DNA of 64,000 nucleotides from Lachnospiraceae bacterium (GTDB taxonomy: Bacteria > Bacillota > Clostridia > Lachnospirales > Lachnospiraceae). Below, in pieces: positions 13,325 through 24,757 of the stretch (within the stretch, counting starts at the first letter, position 1; each line of letters opens with the position of its first letter). The translations under genes were made by a program, and so were the position numbers. The DNA lies in NCBI GenBank assembly GCA_029054245.1, contig JAIDFQ010000061.1, positions 1-64,000 on the forward strand, read 5' to 3'. A model generated the notes under the pieces. The model was given only the letters and a program-made list of their open reading frames with translations. It made no database searches and was not told where the DNA came from.

Positions 13325-13743
13325 CTATATTTCTTCACTTTCTACAATATCTCTTGCAATTTTCATAATTGCTGTAGTAATCGAGGAAAAACCATCCCAA
13401 CTGCTAACAACCGCTTTTCTTTCATGAGCATATCGTAAAAAAACAAATGCATCACTAATTTCTTCTAGCACGAATTCAAAATTATCTTTTTTATATTTCC
13501 CAAATGCAAATCCCTATGGATAATACCTGCATCATGAACATCTTTCATCCCTAAAAGCAATTCATTAATTAAATGCAAAAACATATCATCTGTCACAAAA
13601 GGATTGTTGTCAGCCAAAAAAGTTATCACTGACAGCTTTTCGATATATATGAGAAAGCAACAGGGACATAAAGAAACTAAATCATCCAGTCTGCTTCTTA
13701 TGATTTGTTCTTGATTATCCTGCTCTTTAAATACTTTTCCAAA
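13325..13743 (-). pseudogene. protein kinase-like relic
   Basis: Read on the minus strand, one frame gives GKVFKEQDNQ, then a stretch ending VHDAGIIHRDLHLGNI, which is the catalytic loop (HRDLxxxN) of a eukaryotic-type Ser/Thr kinase or related phosphotransferase. Right after it a frameshift at an A-run is needed to go on into KDNFEFVLEEISD and a helical tail ending at the stop at 13325-13327. The DFG region and most of the C-lobe are absent, and the 5' end is lost at the flavodoxin gene. It is a dead gene with both a truncation and an internal deletion. Confidence 0.6.
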
Positions 13744-14400
13744 CTATTTAATCCCCATACTTCCAAGCCACTCTTCTATCGCATCTCTGGAAGTTCCAGC
13801 TTCAAAACGCCGCCCATCCATCCACCTGGCCGAGTCAGAACAAAGTTCATGAAGATTCGTTGCACTGGAGCCAATCCCGCTGCTATGGGAGGTACAGAAC
13901 GGAACGATTGTCTTACCGGAAAAATCATAGCTTTCCAAAAAGGTACTGATAATTCTGGGAGCCTGCCCATGCCATATGGGATAGCCGATCAGTATGGTAT
14001 CATAGGAATCCATATTTTCCACACTGCCTGATATGGCAGGACGGGAACTAGGATCCTCCTGCTCTTTATCAGCACGGCCGCCCGTATAATATGCCAGATC
14101 TGCCTCTGTGTAAGGATCTTCTGCCACAATCTCATAGAGATCTGCCCCCAGAATCTCTGCTGCGTATTCCGCCAACGGCTGCGTTGTTCCGGTACATGAA
14201 AAATATGCAACCAAAGTTCTTGTTCCCATTTCTGCCTCCTGTAACACCGCAGATTGCTCCACTGTTTCCTGCGTAATATCCTGTACTTCTTCAGACTGGA
14301 CAGCTGCCAAATCCTGCCTTTCTGATGCAGCAGAATTACTGCAGGCAACTAAGCTAAAAACCATTACAAAAGAAAGCAGCAAACTGACTACTCTTTTCAT
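13744..14400 (-). CDS. lipoprotein flavodoxin
   Basis: A 218-residue protein with a lipoprotein signal peptide (MKRVVSLLLSFVMVFSLVAC, lipobox ending at Cys20), a polar linker and a flavodoxin fold. LVAYFSCTGTT near residue 70 is the phosphate-binding loop for FMN, and a GYPIWHG segment forms the second flavin contact. It should be an electron carrier anchored outside the membrane, which is unusual for flavodoxins but known in clostridia. Its ATG overlaps the stop of the iron-sulfur flavoprotein gene (TAATG). It is last in a four-gene operon with an acetyltransferase and a lipoprotein aldo/keto reductase, driven by the conserved promoter at 16603-16669. Confidence 0.8.
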   Translation of the reverse strand: MKRVVSLLLSFVMVFSLVACSNSAASERQDLAAVQSEEVQDITQETVEQSAVLQEAEMGTRTLVAYFSCTGTTQPLAEYAAEILGADLYEIVAEDPYTEADLAYYTGGRADKEQEDPSSRPAISGSVENMDSYDTILIGYPIWHGQAPRIISTFLESYDFSGKTIVPFCTSHSSGIGSSATNLHELCSDSARWMDGRRFEAGTSRDAIEEWLGSMGIK

Positions 14401-14987
14401 TATCCATTCCGCCTTTCTTCCAGAGCCTTAAGCAAATATGCCATATTCCGCCCCAGACTTCTCATAGTTTCCATACCTTCCTGATCCTCCGAAACCTCCC
14501 CCGGCATCCGTCCGTATGCCATGGGCCAGTAGGAAGAGCCAACGATAAACATATCCTGCAGCATGAAAAAATGGTTCATGGCATCCAAAGTGTTCAATGC
14601 CCCGCCACGGCGTCCCGCCGTCACCGCCGCACCTACTTTATGCCGAAGCAGATTTTCACTCCGGTTCATATCCGCCACAACCGATGCCCGCTCCAGAAAC
14701 GCCTGCATATTTGCGGAAATATTGGCGGTATATACCGGCGAGCCCAAAAGGATTCCGTCCGCCTGTACCATCTTTTCATAGATTTCCTGAAACATATCCT
14801 TTTTATGGACACAGTTCTTTTTCCCGCCACAGGCCCAGCAGGCTTTACAGGGTTCTATAATCTTACCGGCGAGCTGTACCATCTCTGTTTCTATTCCCTC
14901 TTTATTCAGTTCCTCAAATACCGCACCTATAAGAAGCGCTGTGTTTCCATCCTTTCTCGCACTGCTGTTAATTGCTAAAACCTTCAT
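14400..14987 (-). CDS. iron-sulfur flavoprotein / NADPH-dependent FMN reductase family
   Basis: A 195-residue flavodoxin-fold protein. MKVLAINSSARKDGNT is the FMN phosphate loop; CKACWACGGKKNC near residue 50 is a cysteine cluster of the type that binds a 4Fe-4S centre in iron-sulfur flavoproteins; GSPVYTANISANMQAF follows. The start ATG at 14987 has GGAGG at good spacing; an upstream frame is open to 15062 without a site. Likely a cytoplasmic flavin-based electron carrier. It sits between the broken aldo/keto reductase gene and the flavodoxin lipoprotein gene in the same operon. Confidence 0.8.
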   Translation of the reverse strand: MKVLAINSSARKDGNTALLIGAVFEELNKEGIETEMVQLAGKIIEPCKACWACGGKKNCVHKKDMFQEIYEKMVQADGILLGSPVYTANISANMQAFLERASVVADMNRSENLLRHKVGAAVTAGRRGGALNTLDAMNHFFMLQDMFIVGSSYWPMAYGRMPGEVSEDQEGMETMRSLGRNMAYLLKALEERRNG

Positions 14988-15024
14988 ATTCGTTTCCTCC
15001 ATTTCTCTCTCATACAAATTATTT

Positions 15025-15978
15025 TTAGTACCAGTCATGTTTTTCGTTCCGATCCAGACCACCTATACGGTCCATTTCCTCTTCTGTCAGTTCAAAATCA
15101 AACAATTCTGTATTCTCCTTTATATGGTCAGGGTTGCCAGACCCCGGTATTACCACCACCCCTTTTTGCAGATTCCAGCGTAAGATAACCTGTGCGGAAG
15201 ATTTTCCGTGAGCCTATGCAATTTCCGTTATCACCTCGTTGTTCAGAAGTTCTGCTGTATATCCTCTGCCGCCCAGGGGATACCATCCCTGCACCACAAT
15301 GCCAAGACCATGAATATAGGGGATTACATCATTCTCTTGATAATAGGGATGAATCTCATTCTGAACCAGCGCCGGGGTAATATTTACCTGGGGCAGAAAT
15401 TCCTCCAGTTCTTCCACATACCAGTTTGACAAACCAAGGGAACGGATTTTTCCGTCCTCCACTGCTTTTTCCATAGCAAGATAAGCATCTACATCGCCTG
15501 TGCCCGGATGGTGGAGCAGCATCATATCTATATATTCGATATCCAGCTTTGCAAGAGCTTCTTCAATGGCAGCTTCCGGGTTGGAAAACTGATTGGGGTA
15601 CAGCTTTGTAATGACAAAGATTTCCTCCCTGGGAATGCCGGAATTTCTCACTGCCTCCCCTACACTTTCTTCATTGTGGTACATGTACGCGGTGTCAATC
15701 AGGCGGACACCGCTGTTTAAAGCCGCTGTAACCGAATCCACACATACCTCACCTGTCAGACTGTAAGTACCGAGTCCGTATATAGGCATTTCGTATCCAC
15801 TATTAAGCATTACTCTCTTTGATTCAAAATCAAAAGAAATACTCTCTTCCACTGTTTCACTCCTTCCTGAGTCCATATGTCCATTGTCTTCTGTCATCTT
15901 CTGATTCTCTGATCGACCGCATCCAGATACAGCCAAAACAAAAGCACAAGACAGTGCCATGCAAATCCATTTTTTCAT
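15025..15978 (-). pseudogene. lipoprotein aldo/keto reductase with an in-frame amber stop
   Basis: The first 254 codons encode a lipoprotein signal (VSGC lipobox) and an aldo/keto reductase barrel with the expected catalytic residues: DTAYMY (Asp and Tyr), ITKLYP (Lys) and LLHHPG (His). At 15214-15216 a TAG stop interrupts the gene, but the same frame continues without shift for about 62 codons ([18 protein letters not shown], then [10 protein letters not shown], ending HDWY and TAA at 15025-15027). The missing part holds the NADPH-binding RWNLQ...IPGS region. Most simply one AAG or CAG codon became TAG, so this is a single-nonsense pseudogene unless the codon is read through. Gene order is kept: the acetyltransferase stop is two bases upstream. 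Confidence 0.8.
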
Positions 15979-15979
15979 T

Positions 15980-16567
15980 TCAAACCTCCTTAGAAACTTT
16001 TTTTATAACCTTTGCAGGGACACCGCCCACCACAGTCAACTCCGCAACATCACATGTCACTACAGCACCAGCCGCTACCACAGCCCAGTCTCCAATTGTC
16101 ACTCCGGGCAGAATGGTGGCATTGGAACCAATCCACACATGATTTCCGATTGTAATTGGTGCATAATGATTTTTACGATTTTTGTCAGGATGAAGATCAT
16201 GGTTAATTGTTGCCAGCACTACATTGTGTCCGATCAGCACTCCATTCCCAATTGTAATTCCTCCTTGATCCTGAAAATGACAGCCGGAATTGATAAAAAC
16301 ATCTTTTCCGATGCTGATATTCTTTCCAAAGTCCGTATAAAACGGAGGAAACAGCCGGAAAGTATCATCAATTTTCTTTCCTGTCAGCCGCCCCATAATC
16401 TCTCGGATTTCCTCTGGAGTATGATATTGATTGTTTATTTCCATCTCAATCCGAATTGCTTCCTGACAAAGTGAATCAAAAAACATCTGCCAGTCTGGCC
16501 TGCATGCAGCATCTCCTTCTTCACCCTGAAACGCTTCTATTATGTCCTCTATAATCACACCAATCAC
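15980..16567 (-). CDS. sugar O-acetyltransferase-like (left-handed beta-helix)
   Basis: A 195-residue hexapeptide-repeat acetyltransferase of the maltose/galactoside acetyltransferase type. The hexapeptide repeats run from residue ~80 ([13 protein letters not shown]) through [22 protein letters not shown], with His in the NHDLHPD loop as the catalytic base. The N-terminal helix pair carries family features around [14 protein letters not shown]. It is the first gene of the four-gene redox operon, directly under a promoter that matches those of two other units in this region. An acetyl acceptor cannot be told from sequence. Confidence 0.85.
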
Positions 16568-16602
16568 TCCTTGTAAACTGCTGTTGTGTTTTTTGTTATT
16601 TC

Positions 16603-16669
16603 ATTATAAATACTTTTAGATTAGATATCAAATACATATATAATATTGAAATCAATACCAAAAAAGTAT
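16603..16669 (-). promoter_or_regulatory. LysR-type promoter a (acetyltransferase operon)
   Basis: On the minus strand: a 15-bp dyad (ATAC-N7-GTAT, plus coordinates 16655-16669), 23 bases, TTGATA (16626-16631), 17 bases, TATAAT (16603-16608). The same four parts with the same three spacings occur before the 85-residue gene and the HgdB-like operon. A T-N11-A dyad upstream of -35 is the usual LysR activator site. Confidence 0.75.
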
Positions 16670-16716
16670 TCAATTTGCACACAATGTTCCAATCTCCTTT
16701 ACATTAAATTTTACTA

Positions 16717-16770
16717 AAATAGGCATATTGCGGCGTTTTCATTCAAAACCGATCACAATATGCCTATTTC
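16717..16770 (-). terminator. intrinsic terminator after the 85-residue protein gene
   Basis: A 14-bp perfect stem, AAATAGGCATATTG (16717-16730) with CAATATGCCTATTT (16756-16769), has an inner GTTTT/AAAAC stem. On the minus strand it is followed by TTTTAG. It ends the transcript of the gene at 16789-17046 and separates it from promoter a. Confidence 0.8.
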
Positions 16771-16788
16771 TTATTGTCGCCATCTGAC

Positions 16789-17046
16789 TTAAGTGCTGCT
16801 TTTCGATTCCCTAACTGCTTTTCTCACTTTTATTTTATAGAGCAGATAATCAAGGCAGTCTATCTGTTTCTGACCTTTATGGACAGAGCCAAGCAAAGCC
16901 TTCCTATGTCTTGTGAGTACCGGCACAATATCCGAAAACTGACCTTCCTTTACAAATGCCATACACAGTTCTGTCATCTGCTGGTCACAACCGGCATCAA
17001 TCAAGTTTTGGTAAATGCTTCCGTATATATCTTTTGCCTCTGCCAT
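16789..17046 (-). CDS. small helical protein in LysR-type regulon
   Basis: An 85-residue, probably all-helical, soluble protein that I do not recognise. It has a GCDQQMTEL segment with two cysteines (C20 and C28), a central VLTRHRKALLGSVHKGQKQIDCLDYLLY helix pair and a basic tail. GGAGG precedes its ATG. It forms its own transcription unit, with a promoter matching those of the flanking operons and a strong terminator, so it is probably part of the same response. A small regulator or assembly factor would fit. No function is claimed. Confidence 0.75.
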   Translation of the reverse strand: MAEAKDIYGSIYQNLIDAGCDQQMTELCMAFVKEGQFSDIVPVLTRHRKALLGSVHKGQKQIDCLDYLLYKIKVRKAVRESKSST

Positions 17047-17069
17047 CTTCCTTCCTCCTTCTGAATTTT

Positions 17070-17136
17070 ATTATAAATCTCCATTAGCAAAATATCAAAT
17101 TCATATATAATATCACGTTCCATACCTAAAAGATAT
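17070..17136 (-). promoter_or_regulatory. LysR-type promoter b (85-residue protein gene)
   Basis: On the minus strand: dyad ATATCTTTTAGGTAT (17122-17136), 23 bases, TTGATA (17093-17098), 17 bases, TATAAT (17070-17075). The layout matches promoters a and c base for base in spacing. Confidence 0.75.
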
Positions 17137-17164
17137 TTAATTATGCATATAAAAACAATCCTGC

Positions 17165-17839
17165 TTAATAATTAGATGTCAGGAGAAATGGCATAACCAT
17201 TAGCAGAAAATATGAAGCCAGACGGAACCATCTTACCGCATCTGGTATCTCCCTGCCCATTTTCTTTGAAAGCGCTCCTGTCACTACGACCAGAAGCAGG
17301 ATGGGACTGACCATGCTGGAAAGACTGAATGCAACACCTGTCATCCCCGCCAAAGGAACCGACAGTGTGAAGCAGTAGCCAATCATCAGCAAAAGAGGGG
17401 CGCATGGCGTCATACCATAAGTCAGTCCAGCCATCAGCATCGGAATAAAACCCGACTTTCCTTTCCGTTCCCCACACCCTTTACAGCTACCGCAAGCTTT
17501 CTGCTTTTTTAACTCTAAAAACCATCGAATAACCATGACTGCACCAATCACGCTCATTGCAGTCTGTGAGAACAGCCGCAGATTAAAGGAACCGATATAC
17601 CCACTCTCACTGATAAACTGCCTGGCTGTCAGTGCAGAGACCATACAAAGCAATGAGACACTGACCATCTTCCCAAAGAAAAAGCTCACAAAAGATAAAA
17701 TCCCTTTTTTCACACCATTAGAATGGGACACCACATAGGTGGAGAGAAATGTGCTGATAATCGGGCTGCAGCAAGTCCCGCATCCAAGCCCGATGGAAAC
17801 AGCAGTCGTAATAGCAGGAATCATCAATAATGTATTCAT
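17165..17839 (-). CDS. CcdA/DsbD-like membrane protein
   Basis: A 224-residue protein with about six membrane segments. Segment 1 carries GCGTCCSPI and segment 4 carries GMTPCAPL, matching the paired Cys-Pro motifs by which CcdA/DsbD proteins pass thiol electrons across the membrane. A cytoplasmic loop between them has a cysteine-rich stretch (CGSCKGCGERK near residue 117). UreH/TauE-like annotation would be the alternative. It is the last gene of the HgdB-like operon, and its start overlaps the activase stop by four bases. It may carry reducing power to or from the polyferredoxin encoded in the same operon, which is inference. Confidence 0.7.
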   Translation of the reverse strand: MNTLLMIPAITTAVSIGLGCGTCCSPIISTFLSTYVVSHSNGVKKGILSFVSFFFGKMVSVSLLCMVSALTARQFISESGYIGSFNLRLFSQTAMSVIGAVMVIRWFLELKKQKACGSCKGCGERKGKSGFIPMLMAGLTYGMTPCAPLLLMIGYCFTLSVPLAGMTGVAFSLSSMVSPILLLVVVTGALSKKMGREIPDAVRWFRLASYFLLMVMPFLLTSNY

Positions 17840-18627
17840 ATTCCACCTCTCTTACTGGCAATCAAAGCTGCGCCCACTGCACCGTTAAACTGCGGATATT
17901 TTGCGACATATACATCCTTCATCATTTCTTCCTCAAAGGCTCTGTGAATGCCGGTATTTAACGCACCGCCTCCCGTCATCAGGATATCTCCTCCCTTTTC
18001 GGATTTCTTCATCATCTTAATGATCCGCTTCGCCATTGACAGATGCATCCCCGCCAGAATATCCCGTCTGTCAAATTTCCTCGCCACAAGAGAGATCACT
18101 TCCGACTGTGCAAACACCACGCAGGTGCTGTTGATGTCACACGGAGCAGTGCTTTCCAACGAAAGCGGCCCTACCTGGTCAATGGTCGTTTCCAAAATCT
18201 GTGCAATGACTTCCATAAACTTCCCCGTCCCTGCAGCACATTTGTCATTCATGGTAAAGTATTTCACATTATAATTTGCATCCAAATAAATGATCTTGCT
18301 GTCCTGCCCGCCAATATCCACCACCATGCCGGGACGGTATCCTTCCGGCGCCGTCACCCGCACACCATAAGCATGGGCGGTAATTTCTGAAATATCATCA
18401 TCAGCCACCTCCAGAATCTTACGGCTGTAACCCGTAGCCATAATATAACCAATATCGCTGCGGGTGAGCCCATATTTTTTACACAAGGCAGCCACGATTT
18501 TTTTTGCAGTCGAATTATTATCAATACCCGTAGGCAACACTACCGTATTGATCACCTTCCCTTCTTTCATCAGGGCAGCCTTCAGATAAGTGGAACCACC
18601 ATCCAATCCAAGATAATATTTGCCCAT
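17836..18627 (-). CDS. HgdC/BadF-type activase (dehydratase activator ATPase)
   Basis: A 263-residue ASKHA-fold ATPase. LGLDGGSTYLKAALM is the first phosphate loop, VVDIGGQDSKII the second, NDKCAAGTGKF holds a cysteine for the dimer-bridging 4Fe-4S cluster, and the second ligand is in STCVVFAQSEV; GGGALN is the adenosine motif. These activators use ATP to push one electron at very low potential onto a partner of the HgdB/BcrB/double-cubane family. ATG at 18627 has a better-spaced ribosome site than the GTG nine bases earlier. The partner gene lies just upstream in the operon. Confidence 0.9.
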   Translation of the reverse strand: MGKYYLGLDGGSTYLKAALMKEGKVINTVVLPTGIDNNSTAKKIVAALCKKYGLTRSDIGYIMATGYSRKILEVADDDISEITAHAYGVRVTAPEGYRPGMVVDIGGQDSKIIYLDANYNVKYFTMNDKCAAGTGKFMEVIAQILETTIDQVGPLSLESTAPCDINSTCVVFAQSEVISLVARKFDRRDILAGMHLSMAKRIIKMMKKSEKGGDILMTGGGALNTGIHRAFEEEMMKDVYVAKYPQFNGAVGAALIASKRGGI

Positions 18628-18644
18628 CGCTGTCACACCCTTTC

Positions 18645-19928
18645 CTATTTTTGCTTTGCATATTCTTTCAGCTTAATCAACTCAATAAACGCTTCCATGC
18701 GGATACGGAGCTGTTCCACATCTTCTTCGTTATAGTCGCTCTCCACACGGATAATCGGAATATCCAGTTTCCCAAGTTCATCCTCCATAATCTGGTATTC
18801 ATAATCATAAACCAGACATCCCCGCAGCACATGGTAGACCACTCCCTGGATTTTGTGTTCTTTTATCATCTGCCTGATCCGGTAAACCCTCTGGCTGTTA
18901 TCCACAAACACCGGGCAGGTACAGGGCTTTGTATATCGGGAAGCAAGCGCCCTCATCATCCCATCAAAGCCAGGATCAATGACCGATACGGGATCATACA
19001 GCCCCCGCTCTCCCATGCAGGTCTCATCTGCTGCAAGAATGCCTCCCATTTCCTCAATCAGAAGTGGAATCTTAATATTAGGAAATGCGATTGGGGAACC
19101 CGTTATAAGGATGCGGGGCTGATTTTTTCTCCCCACAAAACGCTCCTGCTCCATCCGCAGCCTCATTTCAAGATTCAGCTTATGCATCTGCCCTGCCCAC
19201 ATTTTTACCGGCATATAGGAATAAGCATTCATGATTGCCATCACCTGGGTTCCATGTAACAGCGCAGGGTCATGCTTGCGGTACCTTAGAAATTCTGACA
19301 TTTCATACTGTGCTTCCCCGACCATGTTGATTCCCTCTGCCAAAGATTGCGCCGTAATCTCCCTTCCCGTTTCCTTTTCCAGAATTGGTATCAGACGGTA
19401 CAATTCCCGCAGGAACACTTCCGTATCCGCATCCTCTTTTTTCAAGGGCGGAATATGGAGCGGCACCGTATTCTTTACCGAATCGATCACTCCCGCAAGT
19501 TTCTTTTTGCAGTCACAAGTCACAGGCGCCACAAGAAGGGAACAATGATCAAATGCCGGAAGCGCCCCTATCTGGCCAAAACCCATTACTGCTTTTACTA
19601 ACGGGCAAGCATCACGGGGAATGTAATCATCCCCTATGGAATATGCGGTATAGCTGCCGGAACACAGGCGCACAGGCATGGCTCCTGCAGCATAGACCAA
19701 CTCTGCGGGAACCATGACGCACAATGTCCCGATACATTTCCTATGCCCATCTTTTGGTATATCCATCAGTTTTACATAGGTATTTTCCAGCACATCAAAA
19801 AAAGGCTTTGCCGCATCCGGCATTTCGGATAGTGCCTTTGCGCGGCTTAAATAGGATGCCGCCACTCTTGTAGACTTTTTTATAAATAATTCACGCTGCC
19901 TCTTACCTGCCTGTATCTGTTCAGCCAT
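18645..19928 (-). CDS. HgdB-family (2-hydroxyacyl-CoA dehydratase / double-cubane cluster protein) subunit
   Basis: A 427-residue protein of the HgdB/BcrB/YjiM superfamily. Cysteines sit at family-like places: KCIGTLC near residue 65, LCSGS near 93, DACPLVK near 107, TCDCKKK near 137, DETCMGE near 300, CTCP near 338 and RGCLVYDYE near 368. It keeps enough cysteines for one 4Fe-4S or a double-cubane cluster. With the activase gene downstream it should form an ATP-driven low-potential reductase. No CoA-transferase or acyl-CoA gene is nearby, so a YjiM/double-cubane-like role is more likely than amino-acid fermentation. The substrate is unknown. Confidence 0.85.
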   Translation of the reverse strand: MAEQIQAGKRQRELFIKKSTRVAASYLSRAKALSEMPDAAKPFFDVLENTYVKLMDIPKDGHRKCIGTLCVMVPAELVYAAGAMPVRLCSGSYTAYSIGDDYIPRDACPLVKAVMGFGQIGALPAFDHCSLLVAPVTCDCKKKLAGVIDSVKNTVPLHIPPLKKEDADTEVFLRELYRLIPILEKETGREITAQSLAEGINMVGEAQYEMSEFLRYRKHDPALLHGTQVMAIMNAYSYMPVKMWAGQMHKLNLEMRLRMEQERFVGRKNQPRILITGSPIAFPNIKIPLLIEEMGGILAADETCMGERGLYDPVSVIDPGFDGMMRALASRYTKPCTCPVFVDNSQRVYRIRQMIKEHKIQGVVYHVLRGCLVYDYEYQIMEDELGKLDIPIIRVESDYNEEDVEQLRIRMEAFIELIKLKEYAKQK

Positions 19929-19931
19929 AGC

Positions 19932-21731
19932 CTATTCCTCCTCTTTTTTATCTGCCCTTTTCCCTTTCCCGGAGAACTTCGACATAAATGTCTTTCGGGA
20001 AGATTTATAAATTGCTTTCCCGCAAAAAGTCATAGATAATGCATTGTCCTCCGGACATTTATGTATGCACTCGCCACACATCATGCAGTCAACCGTCTGC
20101 ACGTTTTCTTTCTCTCTTTCTGTATAAATGCTTTTAATCCTCATAGGGCAGGCATGGTAGCAGGCTCCGCATTCCGTGCAGGAAGTACAATCCTTTTTCA
20201 ATTGAAACAGGTTAAACCTTTTGAAAAGCCCCATGAGATACCCCATCGGACAGATAATGCACCAAAACCGCCTGATATAAAAACTGCCTACCAAGATTAC
20301 CACGGCAAAAAAGCCGCCAAGATACAGATTCGTCCAATATCCACCCTGCGCAGTTGTAAAACCTTTCAATGGGCAGATGTCGCAGAAATCCCCGCCTGTA
20401 AAAGCAAACCCTAAAAATAAAACAATCCATACCCATTTAATTGGCTGCAGGAACCGGTTCATCCTGTCTGTAACAACAATCGGACGGATATGCAGTGCCT
20501 GCCGCAGCTTATCCATCAAATCCTGCAGCAATCCTGCCGGACATAAGAATCCGCAAAGAATACGCCCAAGGAATATAAAACATAAAAGTGTAGTTATGAT
20601 AAACATGATCGCATATACCATGTTGCGTACAGGAAAATCTGTGCCGAACCGTCCAAATAAAGCAGGAAGATGTGATAAATAATAGCAGGGCACTTCTGCC
20701 ACCTGATCCAGATTAAACGGGCAACTGAACACAGGAATTGAAATCTCATTCAATATCTGCCCCTGATGGATCAGTTTTCCGGCATATGTCCATAAGAACA
20801 TCCCGGCAAACAGGCATAACCAGCGGACCAGTAAAAACTTTGATTCTGTTTTCCGCTGCAGCGTACCCGAATAAATACCCATCCGTTCCCTGGAATATAC
20901 CGCATAAGCCGGATCATTCTTGTGCATCCGGTTCCGTATCAGATAAACTGCTGCAATTCCAATCACAGTCAGGATAAAAATAACCAGCAGAGGAATATGT
21001 GCCGCAAAAAAATGCGACGAAAAATATGGGTAATCTTCCAATGCATAATGCATACGGTACACAATATTTCCGTCCGGAGAATAGGAGGCGGTAAATCCTT
21101 CCCGTATATCCCTGTTCGTAAGCCCTTTAATCCACCCATGTTCATCTGTCCTATAAGCCTTCCGTTCCCCGTCATAGGAGGTCACAAGAATTTCCGCATC
21201 GGTCAGGATTTCGTTTTCATAATACACCATGATATATTTGCGCTCCGCAAAGACCAGCTCAAATGGAATCTCCTGTGTTAAAAACCTCTGTGGAGCAGGA
21301 TGAAAGGCATTAAGCCCCAAATCAGCACGGGCATAGTCATGAACTTCTTCCAGCGTCCCGTCTCCATCAATATCCTGATCCTTAGCAGGGAGTGCGGCAA
21401 TGAAATGCCCTAGGGAATCCTGCCTGATTGGTGTTTCACTTCCCTTAGCGACAGAAACCTCTCCCGTCTGTGTAAGGCTATAAACCGTCAAGCTCTCTAA
21501 TTTGGTTCCTCCATCCAGACCATATTGGAGCATCCGGCCCAAAGAGCCATAAGCAAACCACACTGATGTATCTGCCGACTGTGGTTTTTCACCTTCCATC
21601 AAGGAATAGCTGTAATCCGTAACATTCATATGAAAATCATACAACACAAAATCTTTTGCAAAAAAGGCAGACACCAATAAGAACACGCACACGGCACACA
21701 CGACTGCCGTACCAATTTTTCTTCCTTTCAT
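19932..21731 (-). CDS. membrane polyferredoxin (NapH/NosR/CcoG-like)
   Basis: A 599-residue protein. An N-terminal anchor is followed by an exported domain (residues ~30-235) that includes an EF-hand-like acidic loop (DQDIDGDGTLEE near 130). About five membrane segments follow, with CGFLCPAG, CDICPLKG and CIICPMG motifs typical of NapH/NosR proteins. A cytoplasmic tail carries two 4Fe-4S motifs, CTSCTECGACYHACP and CMMCGECIHKCP. It likely moves electrons across or along the membrane. It lies between the two HgdB-like genes, with a 4-base ATGA overlap with the upstream one, so it probably serves this reductase system. Confidence 0.85.
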   Translation of the reverse strand: MKGRKIGTAVVCAVCVFLLVSAFFAKDFVLYDFHMNVTDYSYSLMEGEKPQSADTSVWFAYGSLGRMLQYGLDGGTKLESLTVYSLTQTGEVSVAKGSETPIRQDSLGHFIAALPAKDQDIDGDGTLEEVHDYARADLGLNAFHPAPQRFLTQEIPFELVFAERKYIMVYYENEILTDAEILVTSYDGERKAYRTDEHGWIKGLTNRDIREGFTASYSPDGNIVYRMHYALEDYPYFSSHFFAAHIPLLVIFILTVIGIAAVYLIRNRMHKNDPAYAVYSRERMGIYSGTLQRKTESKFLLVRWLCLFAGMFLWTYAGKLIHQGQILNEISIPVFSCPFNLDQVAEVPCYYLSHLPALFGRFGTDFPVRNMVYAIMFIITTLLCFIFLGRILCGFLCPAGLLQDLMDKLRQALHIRPIVVTDRMNRFLQPIKWVWIVLFLGFAFTGGDFCDICPLKGFTTAQGGYWTNLYLGGFFAVVILVGSFYIRRFWCIICPMGYLMGLFKRFNLFQLKKDCTSCTECGACYHACPMRIKSIYTEREKENVQTVDCMMCGECIHKCPEDNALSMTFCGKAIYKSSRKTFMSKFSGKGKRADKKEEE

Positions 21732-22945
21732 ATTGCAGCAGCCCCCTTTCCATACTTTCTCTGATCCAGAACTTCCGAAAATGCCTCCAGCCGGATGCGG
21801 AGCTGTTCCACATCCTGATAATTGTAATCCGTTTCCAACCGGAACACAGGAATATCCATCCTTTCAAATAGTTTTTCAAAACGTCCCAATTCAAAATCAT
21901 ACTCAATCTGGCCTTTCAGAACATGGTAAACAATCCCATCTATTCCTTTTTCCGAAATTAGTTTTACAATCTGTTCATATAATGAATCATTTTTGACATA
22001 TGCCGGAGAAGCGTCACTTGTAAAAAAAGCAGCTATGGAATCTGTTTTTTTCGTCTTTGCCATGCAGCCACCATATTGAAGGGAAAGCGCAGTATAATCC
22101 ACCTGCAGACAGACCTCAGCCCCGGTTTCCTCGATCAGAAACGGCACCTTAAAATTAGGGAAATAAACAGGTGAGCCAAGCAGCAGGACTTTACTTTTAC
22201 CACTTTTACCAGCAGCCTTCTCCTTTCGGAGCCTTGCTGTCAGACATTCTAATTGATGACTCCATTCAGAAAGATTTTCGGCGCAGTAATAACTGCCTAA
22301 AATAAACATCCTGCTGGTTCCGTTTATAACGCCTTCGGATATTTCAAGAAAATCCCGGATATCAGCCTTTGCCCGCCTAATCTGTTCCTGAGACTTTTGC
22401 AGGGCGCGTTTCGTCAGTGGCTTTGTCAAATGATATGCAACCGCAGACCTGCAGGCTTCATACTGCCGGTTCCACTCTTCTATTGAATCTGCATTTTTAA
22501 CTGGTGGGAAATGAACCGTATGTACTTTAAATCCCTCTGATTTTAGAATATATGCCAGTTTTCTCGCACTATCGTTTACCAAAGGCACTAAAATCAATGT
22601 CCTTTCTGTAAAGCATGATTTCAAATAACCAAGGCTTGATCTGCTGACTGGATCAGTATCCCGCGGCACAGCATCATCTGCCCACATGGAGCTAACCCTG
22701 CTGCCGCCCAAAATCCAGTATGGTCTTTTTCCTGATGCAAGAACTAATTCCTCCGGAATGCCAGAACCAATCACGGCAATATCCGGTCCGCCTTTTTTTA
22801 AATCTGCTAAATAGTAATCACTGACACATTTCACGAAAAAAACAAATTCCTTATAAGCAGGCATTCCTTTTACAAGTTTCTGCAATGTATCTATCATCTC
22901 TTTTTGATATGGACCCGATTTTATTCCGTTGATAATTTCAGACAT
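21728..22945 (-). CDS. HgdB-family paralog lacking cluster cysteines
   Basis: A 405-residue paralog of the protein at 18645-19928; both end with the same pattern (PVFRLETDYNYQDVEQLRIR here, PIIRVESDYNEEDVEQLRIR there). At aligned places the likely cluster ligands are gone: DACPLVK is DTDPVSR here, TCDCKKK is VNDSARK, RGCLVYDY is KGQIEYDF, and the N-terminal CIGTLC motif is absent. It could be a structural or regulatory half of a heterodimer whose other half holds the metal cluster. It is the first gene of the five-gene operon, under promoter c, next to the divergent LysR gene. Confidence 0.8.
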   Translation of the reverse strand: MSEIINGIKSGPYQKEMIDTLQKLVKGMPAYKEFVFFVKCVSDYYLADLKKGGPDIAVIGSGIPEELVLASGKRPYWILGGSRVSSMWADDAVPRDTDPVSRSSLGYLKSCFTERTLILVPLVNDSARKLAYILKSEGFKVHTVHFPPVKNADSIEEWNRQYEACRSAVAYHLTKPLTKRALQKSQEQIRRAKADIRDFLEISEGVINGTSRMFILGSYYCAENLSEWSHQLECLTARLRKEKAAGKSGKSKVLLLGSPVYFPNFKVPFLIEETGAEVCLQVDYTALSLQYGGCMAKTKKTDSIAAFFTSDASPAYVKNDSLYEQIVKLISEKGIDGIVYHVLKGQIEYDFELGRFEKLFERMDIPVFRLETDYNYQDVEQLRIRLEAFSEVLDQRKYGKGAAAI

Positions 22946-22968
22946 ATTGAATCACCTCCACAGGAATC

Positions 22969-23035
22969 ATTTTAAATCTGCCTTTCACGAATATCAAATA
23001 CATATACAGAATGTGTTCGCATACTTGAAAGGTAT
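22969..23035 (-). promoter_or_regulatory. LysR-type promoter c (HgdB-like operon)
   Basis: On the minus strand: dyad ATACCTTTCAAGTAT (23021-23035), 23 bases, TTGATA (22992-22997), 17 bases, TAAAAT (22969-22974). It lies between the divergent HgdB-like operon and the lysR gene, the classic place for a LysR binding site, and matches promoters a and b in every spacing. Confidence 0.8.
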
Positions 23036-23087
23036 AGATTCTTCTGTTATATTAAAAAGGACTCATAAAGATAAGGAGGATTTTCAT

Positions 23088-23972
23088 TTGGATATTCGAG
23101 TATTACAATATTTTCTTGCAGTAGCAAGGGAAGAAAGCATAACAAAAGCGGCAGAAGCGCTCCGCATGACTCAGCCGCCGCTTTCAAGGCAATTAAAGGA
23201 TTTAGAGGATGAATTGGGAAAACAGCTGCTTATCCGGGGGAGTAAAAAAGTCACGCTGACGGAAGATGGTATGCTGCTGCGCAAACGAGCGGAAGAATTA
23301 GTTGATTTAATGGAAAAGACAAAAGCGGAACTGACTTCTTCCAATGAAAACATCAACGGGGAAATCCATATTGGCTGCGGGGAAACAGAAGCAATTTCTT
23401 TTCTTGCACAGGCAGCCCAGAATTTACAGAAAAAACATCCGCTGATCCATTACCATATTTACAGCGGTGACGCAGAACGTGTCATGGAAAAGCTGGATAA
23501 AGGCCTGATTGATTTTGGGCTTTTGGTAGGCCCGACAGATATAAGCAAATACGATTACATCCGGCTTCCTATGAAAGACCTATGGGGTGTGCTTATGCGA
23601 AAAGACAGCTCGTTGGCTGAAAAGGAGGTAATTTCGGCAGAAGATTTATGGGATAAACCGCTGATCATCTCACATCAGACTTCCATCAATAGCGAGATGT
23701 TCTCATGGCTGAAAACAGATCTTTCAAAATTAAATATTGTCGCCACTTATGATCTGGTCTATAATGCGGCTCAATTTGTAAAAAAAGGATTTGGATATGT
23801 GATTGCATTAGATAAACTCATCAATACAACAGGTAACAGCAACCTATGTTTTAGACCGCTTTCCCCCACTCTGGAAGCAGAACTTTGCATCGTATGGAAA
23901 AAATACCAGGTTCTTTCAAGAGCTTCCAATACTTTTCTCCAACAACTACAACAAGAAATGGAAAATCTGTAA
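23088..23972 (+). CDS. LysR-family regulator
   Basis: A 294-residue LysR protein starting at TTG (23088), with AAGGAGGA seven bases upstream; an open frame upstream to 22929 lacks such a site and overlaps the divergent gene. The N-terminal winged helix is LDIRVLQYFLAVAREESITKA-like through the PPLSRQLKDLE recognition helix, and the effector domain follows from residue ~90. It is divergent from the HgdB-like operon. The dyad in that gap recurs before two other transcription units, so it is the best candidate regulator of all three. A 140-bp piece of a closely related LysR gene lies at 43872-44013. Confidence 0.9.
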   Translation: MDIRVLQYFLAVAREESITKAAEALRMTQPPLSRQLKDLEDELGKQLLIRGSKKVTLTEDGMLLRKRAEELVDLMEKTKAELTSSNENINGEIHIGCGETEAISFLAQAAQNLQKKHPLIHYHIYSGDAERVMEKLDKGLIDFGLLVGPTDISKYDYIRLPMKDLWGVLMRKDSSLAEKEVISAEDLWDKPLIISHQTSINSEMFSWLKTDLSKLNIVATYDLVYNAAQFVKKGFGYVIALDKLINTTGNSNLCFRPLSPTLEAELCIVWKKYQVLSRASNTFLQQLQQEMENL

Positions 23973-24133
23973 CCAATTTATACATTTTTCTTCATTTTGA
24001 CTTTGCCTTGAGGGGGTTCAGTTGTGGGTGGGTGCTGTCGGGTGGCTCTATGTTATGTGTTGCTGTCTTTGCTCATAAATCTGCTCCTTTACATAAAAAT
24101 AGAGCGTATAGACAAACTGAAAGTTGCCTATTG

Positions 24134-24757
24134 TCAAATGGCATTGATTTGAGATTGTATATCATTTATGAAGCGGCAGACATGAAAGCCGTCACAAACG
24201 GCATGATGTACTTGAACAGCTAATGGCAAATAAAAACATCTATTGTATTCAACAAATTTTCCGATTGTGAAAATAGGGACTAAATATTTATAGTTTGGCG
24301 TATTTAGATTAAAAGCGTCAAATGTTGTCCACGGGATCATAGAAACTGTGAAGCTGTTTTCGGGTATATTAGGTTTTCCTATAAACTGCTTAACATTTCC
24401 ATAGCGTTCAATGTCTTTTTTGTAACGATTACAAAATGTTTCATAGTCATCTGAATAACTTGTCCAAATATTGGAGAATGTTTCTGTTTCTTTATGAAAA
24501 ACCGTATAGCACGGTTCCATAGTGGCATACAGAACTAACTCATCACGACTATTCAAAGCCATTCGGAACTGCTCGTGTCGATTTACAACCGTTGTCAAAA
24601 GATACAACATTGTCGGATATAATTTTAATCCTTTTTGTCTAAGGTTTGTAATGTCAAGTTTTGCCGTCATACTATATGTGCAGGGAACGGAAGAAAGGTA
24701 ATGTTCAAAATATTCTTTCCGTTCCCATGTATCTTGATTAATAATCGTATAGTCCAT
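24134..24757 (-). CDS. cat: chloramphenicol O-acetyltransferase (type A, CatP-like)
   Basis: A 207-residue protein, the same length as clostridial CatP/CatD. The start (WERKEYFEHYLSSVPCTYSM) and the active-site motif HHAVCDGFH near residue 187 are diagnostic; the first-domain features RMALN and ENSFTVSMIPWTTFDAFNL also match. It transfers acetyl from acetyl-CoA to chloramphenicol in the cytoplasm. GGAGCG precedes the ATG. It lies alone, between the LysR gene and a ruined MATE gene, and the short stretch downstream (23973-24133) holds nothing recognisable. The exact subtype cannot be told by eye. Confidence 0.88.
   Translation of the reverse strand: MDYTIINQDTWERKEYFEHYLSSVPCTYSMTAKLDITNLRQKGLKLYPTMLYLLTTVVNRHEQFRMALNSRDELVLYATMEPCYTVFHKETETFSNIWTSYSDDYETFCNRYKKDIERYGNVKQFIGKPNIPENSFTVSMIPWTTFDAFNLNTPNYKYLVPIFTIGKFVEYNRCFYLPLAVQVHHAVCDGFHVCRFINDIQSQINAI

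Follow-up and report, generated by a model that had tools for sequence, protein, structure and literature searches.

Do three promoters of one build, lying within a single stretch of a Lachnospiraceae genome, answer to the same LysR-type regulator? The question is raised by the first 64,000 nucleotides of contig JAIDFQ010000061.1 (GenBank assembly GCA_029054245.1; this whole stretch is referred to here as the window). An earlier sequence-only reading had described such promoters before an acetyltransferase operon, before a gene of 85 residues and before an HgdB-like operon that adjoins a divergent lysR gene, and had placed them in one LysR regulon. From the anatomy of these sites, their conservation and their linkage to lysR, we conclude that the LysR protein (23088-23972) very probably controls all three units through one composite operator.

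A composite operator with two dyads

We observed that the three promoters stood at the places reported, all on the minus strand (16669-16603, 17136-17070 and 23035-22969) and with identical spacing. Against the pattern ATAC-N7-GTAT-N23-TTGATA-N17-TATAAT they showed 0, 1 and 1 mismatches, respectively. The dyad type described earlier (ATAC-N7-GTAT) was exact at two of the sites, while the 85-residue gene has ATAT for ATAC; the other deviation is TAAAAT for TATAAT at the HgdB-like operon. When the composite was written with ATAY and TAWAAT, exactly three occurrences at up to one mismatch were found in the window, and 100 dinucleotide shuffles gave a mean of 0.00 and a largest count of 0. The exact threefold spacing is indeed unlikely to have arisen by chance, as had been argued. 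The -35 and -10 boxes alone were rejected as the source of this match: there were 26 promoter-like pairs in 13400-24200 as against 23.1 in shuffles, and since this is near the shuffle level, only the whole composite is informative.

The sequence-only reading had missed a second 15-bp dyad (ATWY-N7-GWAT), which begins 8 bases past dyad 1 and directly abuts TTGATA at all three promoters. This dyad 2 forms the last 15 of the "23 bases" that had been described as a spacer, and the two dyad centres are 23 bp apart. The three aligned sites share TATATG(T/A)ATTTGATAT. At the acetyltransferase operon, dyad 1 (ATAC-N7-GTAT) lies at 16655-16669, dyad 2 (ATAT-N7-GTAT) at 16632-16646 and the promoter (TTGATA, 17 bases, TATAAT) at 16603-16631. 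The corresponding elements of the 85-residue gene are at 17122-17136 (ATAT-N7-GTAT), 17099-17113 (ATAT-N7-GAAT) and 17070-17098 (TTGATA, 17 bases, TATAAT). Those of the HgdB-like operon are at 23021-23035 (ATAC-CTTTCAA-GTAT), 22998-23012 (ATTC-N7-GTAT, abutting the -35 box) and 22969-22997 (TTGATA, 17 bases, TAAAAT).

The scan of the genome for the motif, which had been suggested with the earlier reading, returned the 44-base two-dyad operator with no mismatch at three places in 3,850,990 bases, and these are the three sites of the window. The string ATATGNATTTGATAT also matched the genome exactly at the same three sites. At up to three mismatches, five operator matches were obtained against three for the pattern read backwards, so the weaker matches mean little; the two extra sites do not exceed the three of the reversed control, and they were rejected as further members of the regulon. 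One weak extra site (C29:12634) faces a LysR paralog.

We placed the start of transcription about 7 bases past the -10 box, and the dyad centres would then lie near -66 and -43. LysR regulators usually have their recognition and activation sites in these regions. The sites suggest that the recognition-plus-activation layout of LysR activators is present at the three promoters, with dyad 1 as the putative recognition site and dyad 2 as the putative activation site. The device is of a known type, the LysR activator switch, and is otherwise textbook.

The lysR gene and its operator among relatives

The lysR gene (23088-23972, plus strand, TTG start) encodes a protein of 294 amino acids with HTH_1 (PF00126, 79.4 bits) and LysR_substrate (PF03466, 99.6 bits) domains, both above cut-off, which identifies it as a LysR-type regulator. 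Its own promoter (23025-23053, plus strand; TTGAAA, 17 bases, TATATT), also missed earlier, has its -35 box inside dyad 1 of the HgdB-like operon, the centre of which reads TTGAAA on the plus strand. The regulator gene is thus divergent and its promoter overlaps the operator, as in systems of the BenM/CatM kind. Among sites with a divergent lysR (at least 68% identity), TTGAAA occupied the dyad 1 centre on the lysR strand at 28 of 30, and a -10-like hexamer (at least four of six bases) followed exactly 17 bases on at all 30; these sites are non-identical, yet several come from close relatives. TTGAAA was found at only one of 21 other sites (L065), where lysR likewise lies opposite, 834 bp away. 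Outside both groups were a contig-edge site (L049), which has TTGAAA and from which lysR is cut off, and seven sites beside a LysR of less than 68% identity. At one locus (L120:9230-10064), lysR and the operator are separated by about 780 bp more than usual, with a 168-amino-acid frame that has no Pfam match; the extra DNA is likely an insertion.

We further estimated how far operator and regulator go together in a sample of 299 genomes of the family, counting LysR at 68% identity or more. LysR was present in 14 genomes and the operator in all 14 of them (the LysR copy of G281 lacks its first 37 residues). One genome (G001) was not counted: its LysR is an 83% fragment that is truncated where a contig ends, and the genome has no operator within three mismatches. 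At up to three mismatches the operator occurred in 18 of the 299 genomes (26 matches, whereas the reversed pattern gave 0), and in each of the 18 a LysR-family gene lay near one or more of the copies; in the four genomes beyond the 14, the adjoining LysR-family genes show 58, 59, 48 and 27% identity.

In the genome collection, 28 relatives of the HgdB-like protein were found, of which 16 are named Lachnospiraceae; some of these loci are genomes met again in the family sample (L046 and G273). The operator (at up to three mismatches) was found twice in 13 of the 28 loci, once in 6 and not at all in 9. In the double loci, the HgdB-like gene is preceded by one copy, which faces lysR or a contig edge, and the other lies past the operon, where the 85-residue gene is the next recognised gene in 10 of the 13. 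Four of the six single-operator loci (L044, L048, L050, L053) stop short of this second place. Among the nine loci with no operator, L037 has a broken lysR, three (L055, L058, L061) have a different LysR (43-45%), and in five (L056, L059, L060, L062, L063) no LysR was seen in the stretch.

An arrangement in which LysR controls its divergent partner only, the other two promoters being constitutive or under another regulator such as MerR, has to be weighed here, as those two sites do not adjoin lysR and TTGATA-17-TATAAT could fire alone. We consider it unlikely: both dyads and their spacings recur at 19 unique non-divergent sites (L065, L113 and the contig-edge site of L049 having been left out of this comparison), and G158 and G108 have second operators, one in front of an aldo/keto reductase gene and one in front of a unit that contains both flavodoxin and aldo/keto reductase genes.

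The nearest solved DNA-binding domain is that of BenM (3m1e, 4ihs, 4iht; 64.9 bits), and both proteins have the recognition helix QPPLSRQ. When 59 LysR homologs were read with their upstream DNA, an exact ATAC-N7-GTAT was present upstream of 30 of the 33 QPPLSRQ proteins, including two distant ones (L087, 58-59% identity, and L134, 27-28%). Of the remaining three, L074 had one mismatch, and L120 and L037 had no such site in the 150 bp read. The helix QPT[LVI]STQ went with ATAG-N7-[CT]TAT in six of nine cases and QPTLSKQ with ATTC-N7-GAAT in two of four, and one of two QPNLSRQ proteins had ATAC.

These comparisons also bear on the possibility that some other regulator, such as a LysR paralog of the same genome, uses the operators and that the neighbouring lysR is incidental. 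The genome does have several LysR genes (eight matches were scored, the window protein included), and related operators occur in at least two paralogous LysR modules. However, one paralog (L138) has a different half-site (ATAGG..TTAT) and the helix QPTVSTQ, and another (L137) has only a three-mismatch site, whereas operator and window-type LysR co-occur in 14 of 14 genomes and the lysR -35 box lies inside the operator itself. We regard this possibility as quite improbable.

Several observations weigh against control of all three units by this LysR. Two divergent sites (L074 and L075) have no TTGAAA and nine of the 28 HgdB-like relatives have no operator within three mismatches, among them L037, where lysR is broken. 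The 299-genome pattern was drawn from sites already seen, so it is a test of linkage and not a discovery, and in the site counts of relatives the half-sites are fixed by the search pattern (up to three mismatches). The helix rule is rough, since nine QPTLSRQ proteins were mixed (two ATGC-N7-GCAT, one ATGC-GTAT, one ATAC-GCAT, one ATAC-GTAT in L086 and four with none found). Most QPPLSRQ rows are close orthologs and not independent, so that the weight rests on the few distant cases. A separate acetyltransferase operator was found in none of 12 relatives of the window's HgdB-like type (the best match within 400 bp had at least 10 mismatches); the three-unit regulon is therefore not itself conserved, its third operator being present only in the window among such loci.

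This last observation also speaks for recent copying of one promoter, by duplication or gene conversion, and the sites of the acetyltransferase operon and the 85-residue gene are indeed alike and only 467 bp apart. Yet 13 of 28 relatives retain the second operator as well as the one beside lysR, the inter-dyad bases and the bases between the -35 and -10 boxes vary, and each class of site keeps its own dyad centre. We give very little credence to copying, in place of shared regulation, as the explanation of the three sites. The proposal of one LysR regulon was supported in our analysis by the co-occurrence, the recurrence of the divergent arrangement, the BenM-type recognition helix and the joint changes of helix and half-site in paralogs, all of which are comparisons of sequence.

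The three putative target units

The HgdB-like operon (minus strand) starts with a protein of the HGD-D family (21728-22945, 405 amino acids), followed by one with NapH/NosR-like C-terminal ferredoxin domains (19932-21731, 599 amino acids), a reductase resembling the double-cubane cluster protein (DCCP; 18645-19928, 427 amino acids), an acyl-CoA dehydratase activase-type ATPase (17836-18636, 266 amino acids; TIGR00241, 232.5 bits against a cut-off of 125.4) and a hydrophobic protein (17165-17839, 224 amino acids) that matched nothing in Pfam or NCBIfam at E 0.001. We refer to the first as DCCP_B and to the reductase as DCCP_A. Neither reached the cut-off of 350 for the double-cubane anaerobic reductase model NF040772 (DCCP_A 323.3 bits, DCCP_B 129.9 bits). 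DCCP_A nevertheless matched 6eno and 7yyl, from the double-cubane cluster protein and its reductase of Carboxydothermus hydrogenoformans, at 216-218 bits. Its cysteines, which align to those of 7yyl and presumably include the cluster ligands, were kept in 22 of 22 true DCCP_A rows; seven of the original 29 rows were DCCP_B proteins caught by the DCCP_A query, as judged by residue counts. DCCP_B matched at 64 bits as a relative, and these cysteines, lost in the window protein, were replaced in about 30 of 31 rows, with one row differing by column. DCCP_B is a conserved partner that probably holds no cluster, to judge from these alignments. As a guess, the NapH-like protein might supply electrons with which the operon reduces a small oxidised compound.

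The DCCP operon was present beside lysR, whole or in part, in G000, G273, G176 and G076, and broken remains of its last gene were found in G276; it is an addition to the regulon. A five-gene module of the same kind (DCCP_A, DCCP_B, activase, NapH-like and 224-amino-acid proteins, at about 30-71% identity) was seen at L059, L060 and L063, in Pseudobacteroides cellulosolvens, Anaerosacchariphilus and another member of the Lachnospiraceae. No relative of the window LysR was found in these three stretches.

The acetyltransferase operon (minus strand) consists of a hexapeptide-repeat acetyltransferase (15980-16567, 195 amino acids), an aldo/keto reductase with a lipoprotein-like N terminus (15214-15978), a protein matching the NADPH-dependent FMN reductase family (14400-15062) and, also by family match, a flavodoxin (Flavodoxin_4) with a lipoprotein-like N terminus (13744-14400). 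An in-frame stop closes the aldo/keto reductase after 254 amino acids; the three relatives that were read are 356-359 amino acids long, and the homology runs on in the same frame to 15028. The unit lies near lysR in 14 of 14 genomes (the window and L120-L132, with a partial match in L120), usually with the aldo/keto reductase and flavodoxin, and it is the putative stable target of the regulon. In G273, a hydrolase-like gene and an aldo/keto reductase gene stand between the 85-residue gene and the acetyltransferase. The window has neither; it has instead a perfect 14-bp inverted repeat (16717-16730 and 16756-16769, with a 25-base loop), which is possibly a weak terminator and was not listed by the terminator scan.

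The gene between these two units (16789-17046, minus strand), the nature of which had not been recognised, encodes 85 residues and is the most novel part of the system. At E 0.001, neither Pfam nor NCBIfam gave a match for the protein, and a scan of 28 relatives at E 1 brought up scattered weak families, a MerR model not among them. A profile built with no full-length MerR in it found a MerR protein of family PF13411 at 47 bits (E 2.2e-13), and 17 relatives bearing a helix-turn-helix were found by this headless profile in the stretches read. On these sequence profiles we assign the protein as a homolog of the helical region past the DNA-binding domain of MerR. Against solved structures the profile matched designed helical repeats best (as repeated short matches), followed by MerR 3gp4 (E 0.028) and 3gpv (E 0.34), a result that is indecisive alone. 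The predicted model has only three helices (2-17, 22-33, 37-83) and no winged-helix DNA-binding domain; over its own length it aligned to residues 57-143 of 3gp4, a Listeria structure, in the VIA comparison only.

Two conserved cysteines (in DAGC and DCLDY) are present in most headless copies and absent from those full-length MerR relatives that were read. Copies that are broken or doubtful (L122, L125, L126:10123, L181, L182) were omitted from the headless and MerR counts and hits below 36 bits also from the cysteine comparison; "no helix-turn-helix" here means that none was found by a custom profile, and L187 and L192 may hold remnants. One of the omitted copies, L181, has a helix-turn-helix together with a co-directional LysR. 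In L122, L125 and L126 (G276, G152 and G264) the headless gene is shortened or shifted, while the operator before it is intact. The homology of the 85-residue protein to the helical part of MerR regulators was noted for 16789-17046 of the window and L136:14279-14653. The same genome as the window also has further modules that pair a LysR paralog with a headless MerR gene (L137, L138 and L144, on C29 and C44); both modules on C29 have operator variants (three mismatches) and aldo/keto reductase matches, and one also has iron alcohol dehydrogenase and flavodoxin matches.

It is a rather doubtful proposal, which we offer all the same, that proteins of this type form a headless MerR family of their own, one that kept the dimerisation helices, lost the DNA-binding domain and gained two conserved cysteines. 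Such a protein might act as a thiol sensor or partner that passes a redox or electrophile signal to the neighbouring LysR or to full-length MerRs, the LysR-MerR pairs being ancestral. In the open-licence literature, we found nothing on a MerR lacking its DNA-binding domain together with LysR and no Lachnospiraceae combination of LysR, MerR, aldo/keto reductase and flavodoxin. Titles and the opening lines of abstracts on headless or truncated MerR held nothing on such proteins, and the titles listed on divergent LysR, MerR or AdhR regulation of aldehyde response named no such system.

Ten genes had been assigned to the three units, all with redox roles. We confirmed the count of ten, and reductases make up the main part of the set; a redox role does not hold for all, given the acetyltransferase, the headless MerR relative, the unassigned hydrophobic protein and the aldo/keto reductase with its in-frame stop.

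Known systems and the proposed switch

The operator most resembles those of BenM and CatM in Acinetobacter baylyi (benA and catB), where Site 1 is ATAC-N7-GTAT, Sites 2 and 3 are imperfect and, at benA, Site 2 is followed by a TTGAAC that resembles a -35 box (PMC6628147). The same site type, imperfect further sites, a -35-like hexamer and the QPPLSRQ helix are common to both systems; in the window, a T-N11-A dyad lies upstream and an imperfect second dyad at the -35 box of all three promoters. The window protein is not BenM or CatM itself (NF040709, 76.2 of 600 bits; NF040710, 77.5 of 580 bits; match confined to residues 1-145), and its targets differ and form several separate units. Its best whole-protein NCBIfam scores were for CidR (147.4) and AlsR (112.8), far below the cut-offs of 415 and 430, and none of the ten target genes is cid or als by family matches.

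The solved double-cubane system shares the DCCP_A match and the activase alongside, whereas the window adds the cysteine-less DCCP_B, the NapH/NosR-like protein and the 224-amino-acid protein. In Calderihabitans maritimus, the transcription unit of the DCCP includes a LysR gene, and the two fell together under carbon monoxide (CO; PMC7306483). The 85-residue protein differs from MerR 3gp4 in having no winged helix and in its cysteine pair. Escherichia coli YqhC belongs to the AraC family. The aldehyde response of its yqhD-dkgA system, in so far as our sources described it, is similar by target type only (a DkgA-like aldo/keto reductase in the window and the iron alcohol dehydrogenase in the paralogous module).

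We propose that one dimer of a LysR tetramer would sit on dyad 1 for recognition and the other would act at dyad 2 for activation. Since the lysR TTGAAA lies within dyad 1, LysR bound there should shade its own -35 box and so keep its own production in check. In the presence of inducer, the other dimer would settle on dyad 2 and aid RNA polymerase at TTGATA-17-TATAAT, and the DCCP operon, the headless MerR gene and the operon of acetyltransferase, aldo/keto reductase, flavin reductase and flavodoxin would be switched on together. Flavodoxins, flavin reductases, aldo/keto reductases and an iron alcohol dehydrogenase are among the targets here and in the paralogous modules, and on this ground we tentatively guess that the inducer could be a reactive carbonyl, a quinone or a similar electrophile.

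The cysteine-less DCCP_B and the headless, cysteine-bearing MerR relative are parts that a specialist may not expect. The operon described here links double-cubane-type reductases, which are not known to have an established role, to one particular LysR as well as to reductases of the flavin and aldehyde types. The headless MerR offers a handle on how regulators may be trimmed to small partner proteins, and the paralogs lend themselves to the study of LysR specificity, several having a half-site and a recognition helix of their own. Together, these comparisons turn a motif seen by eye into a defined and testable regulon that is common to a group of Lachnospiraceae.

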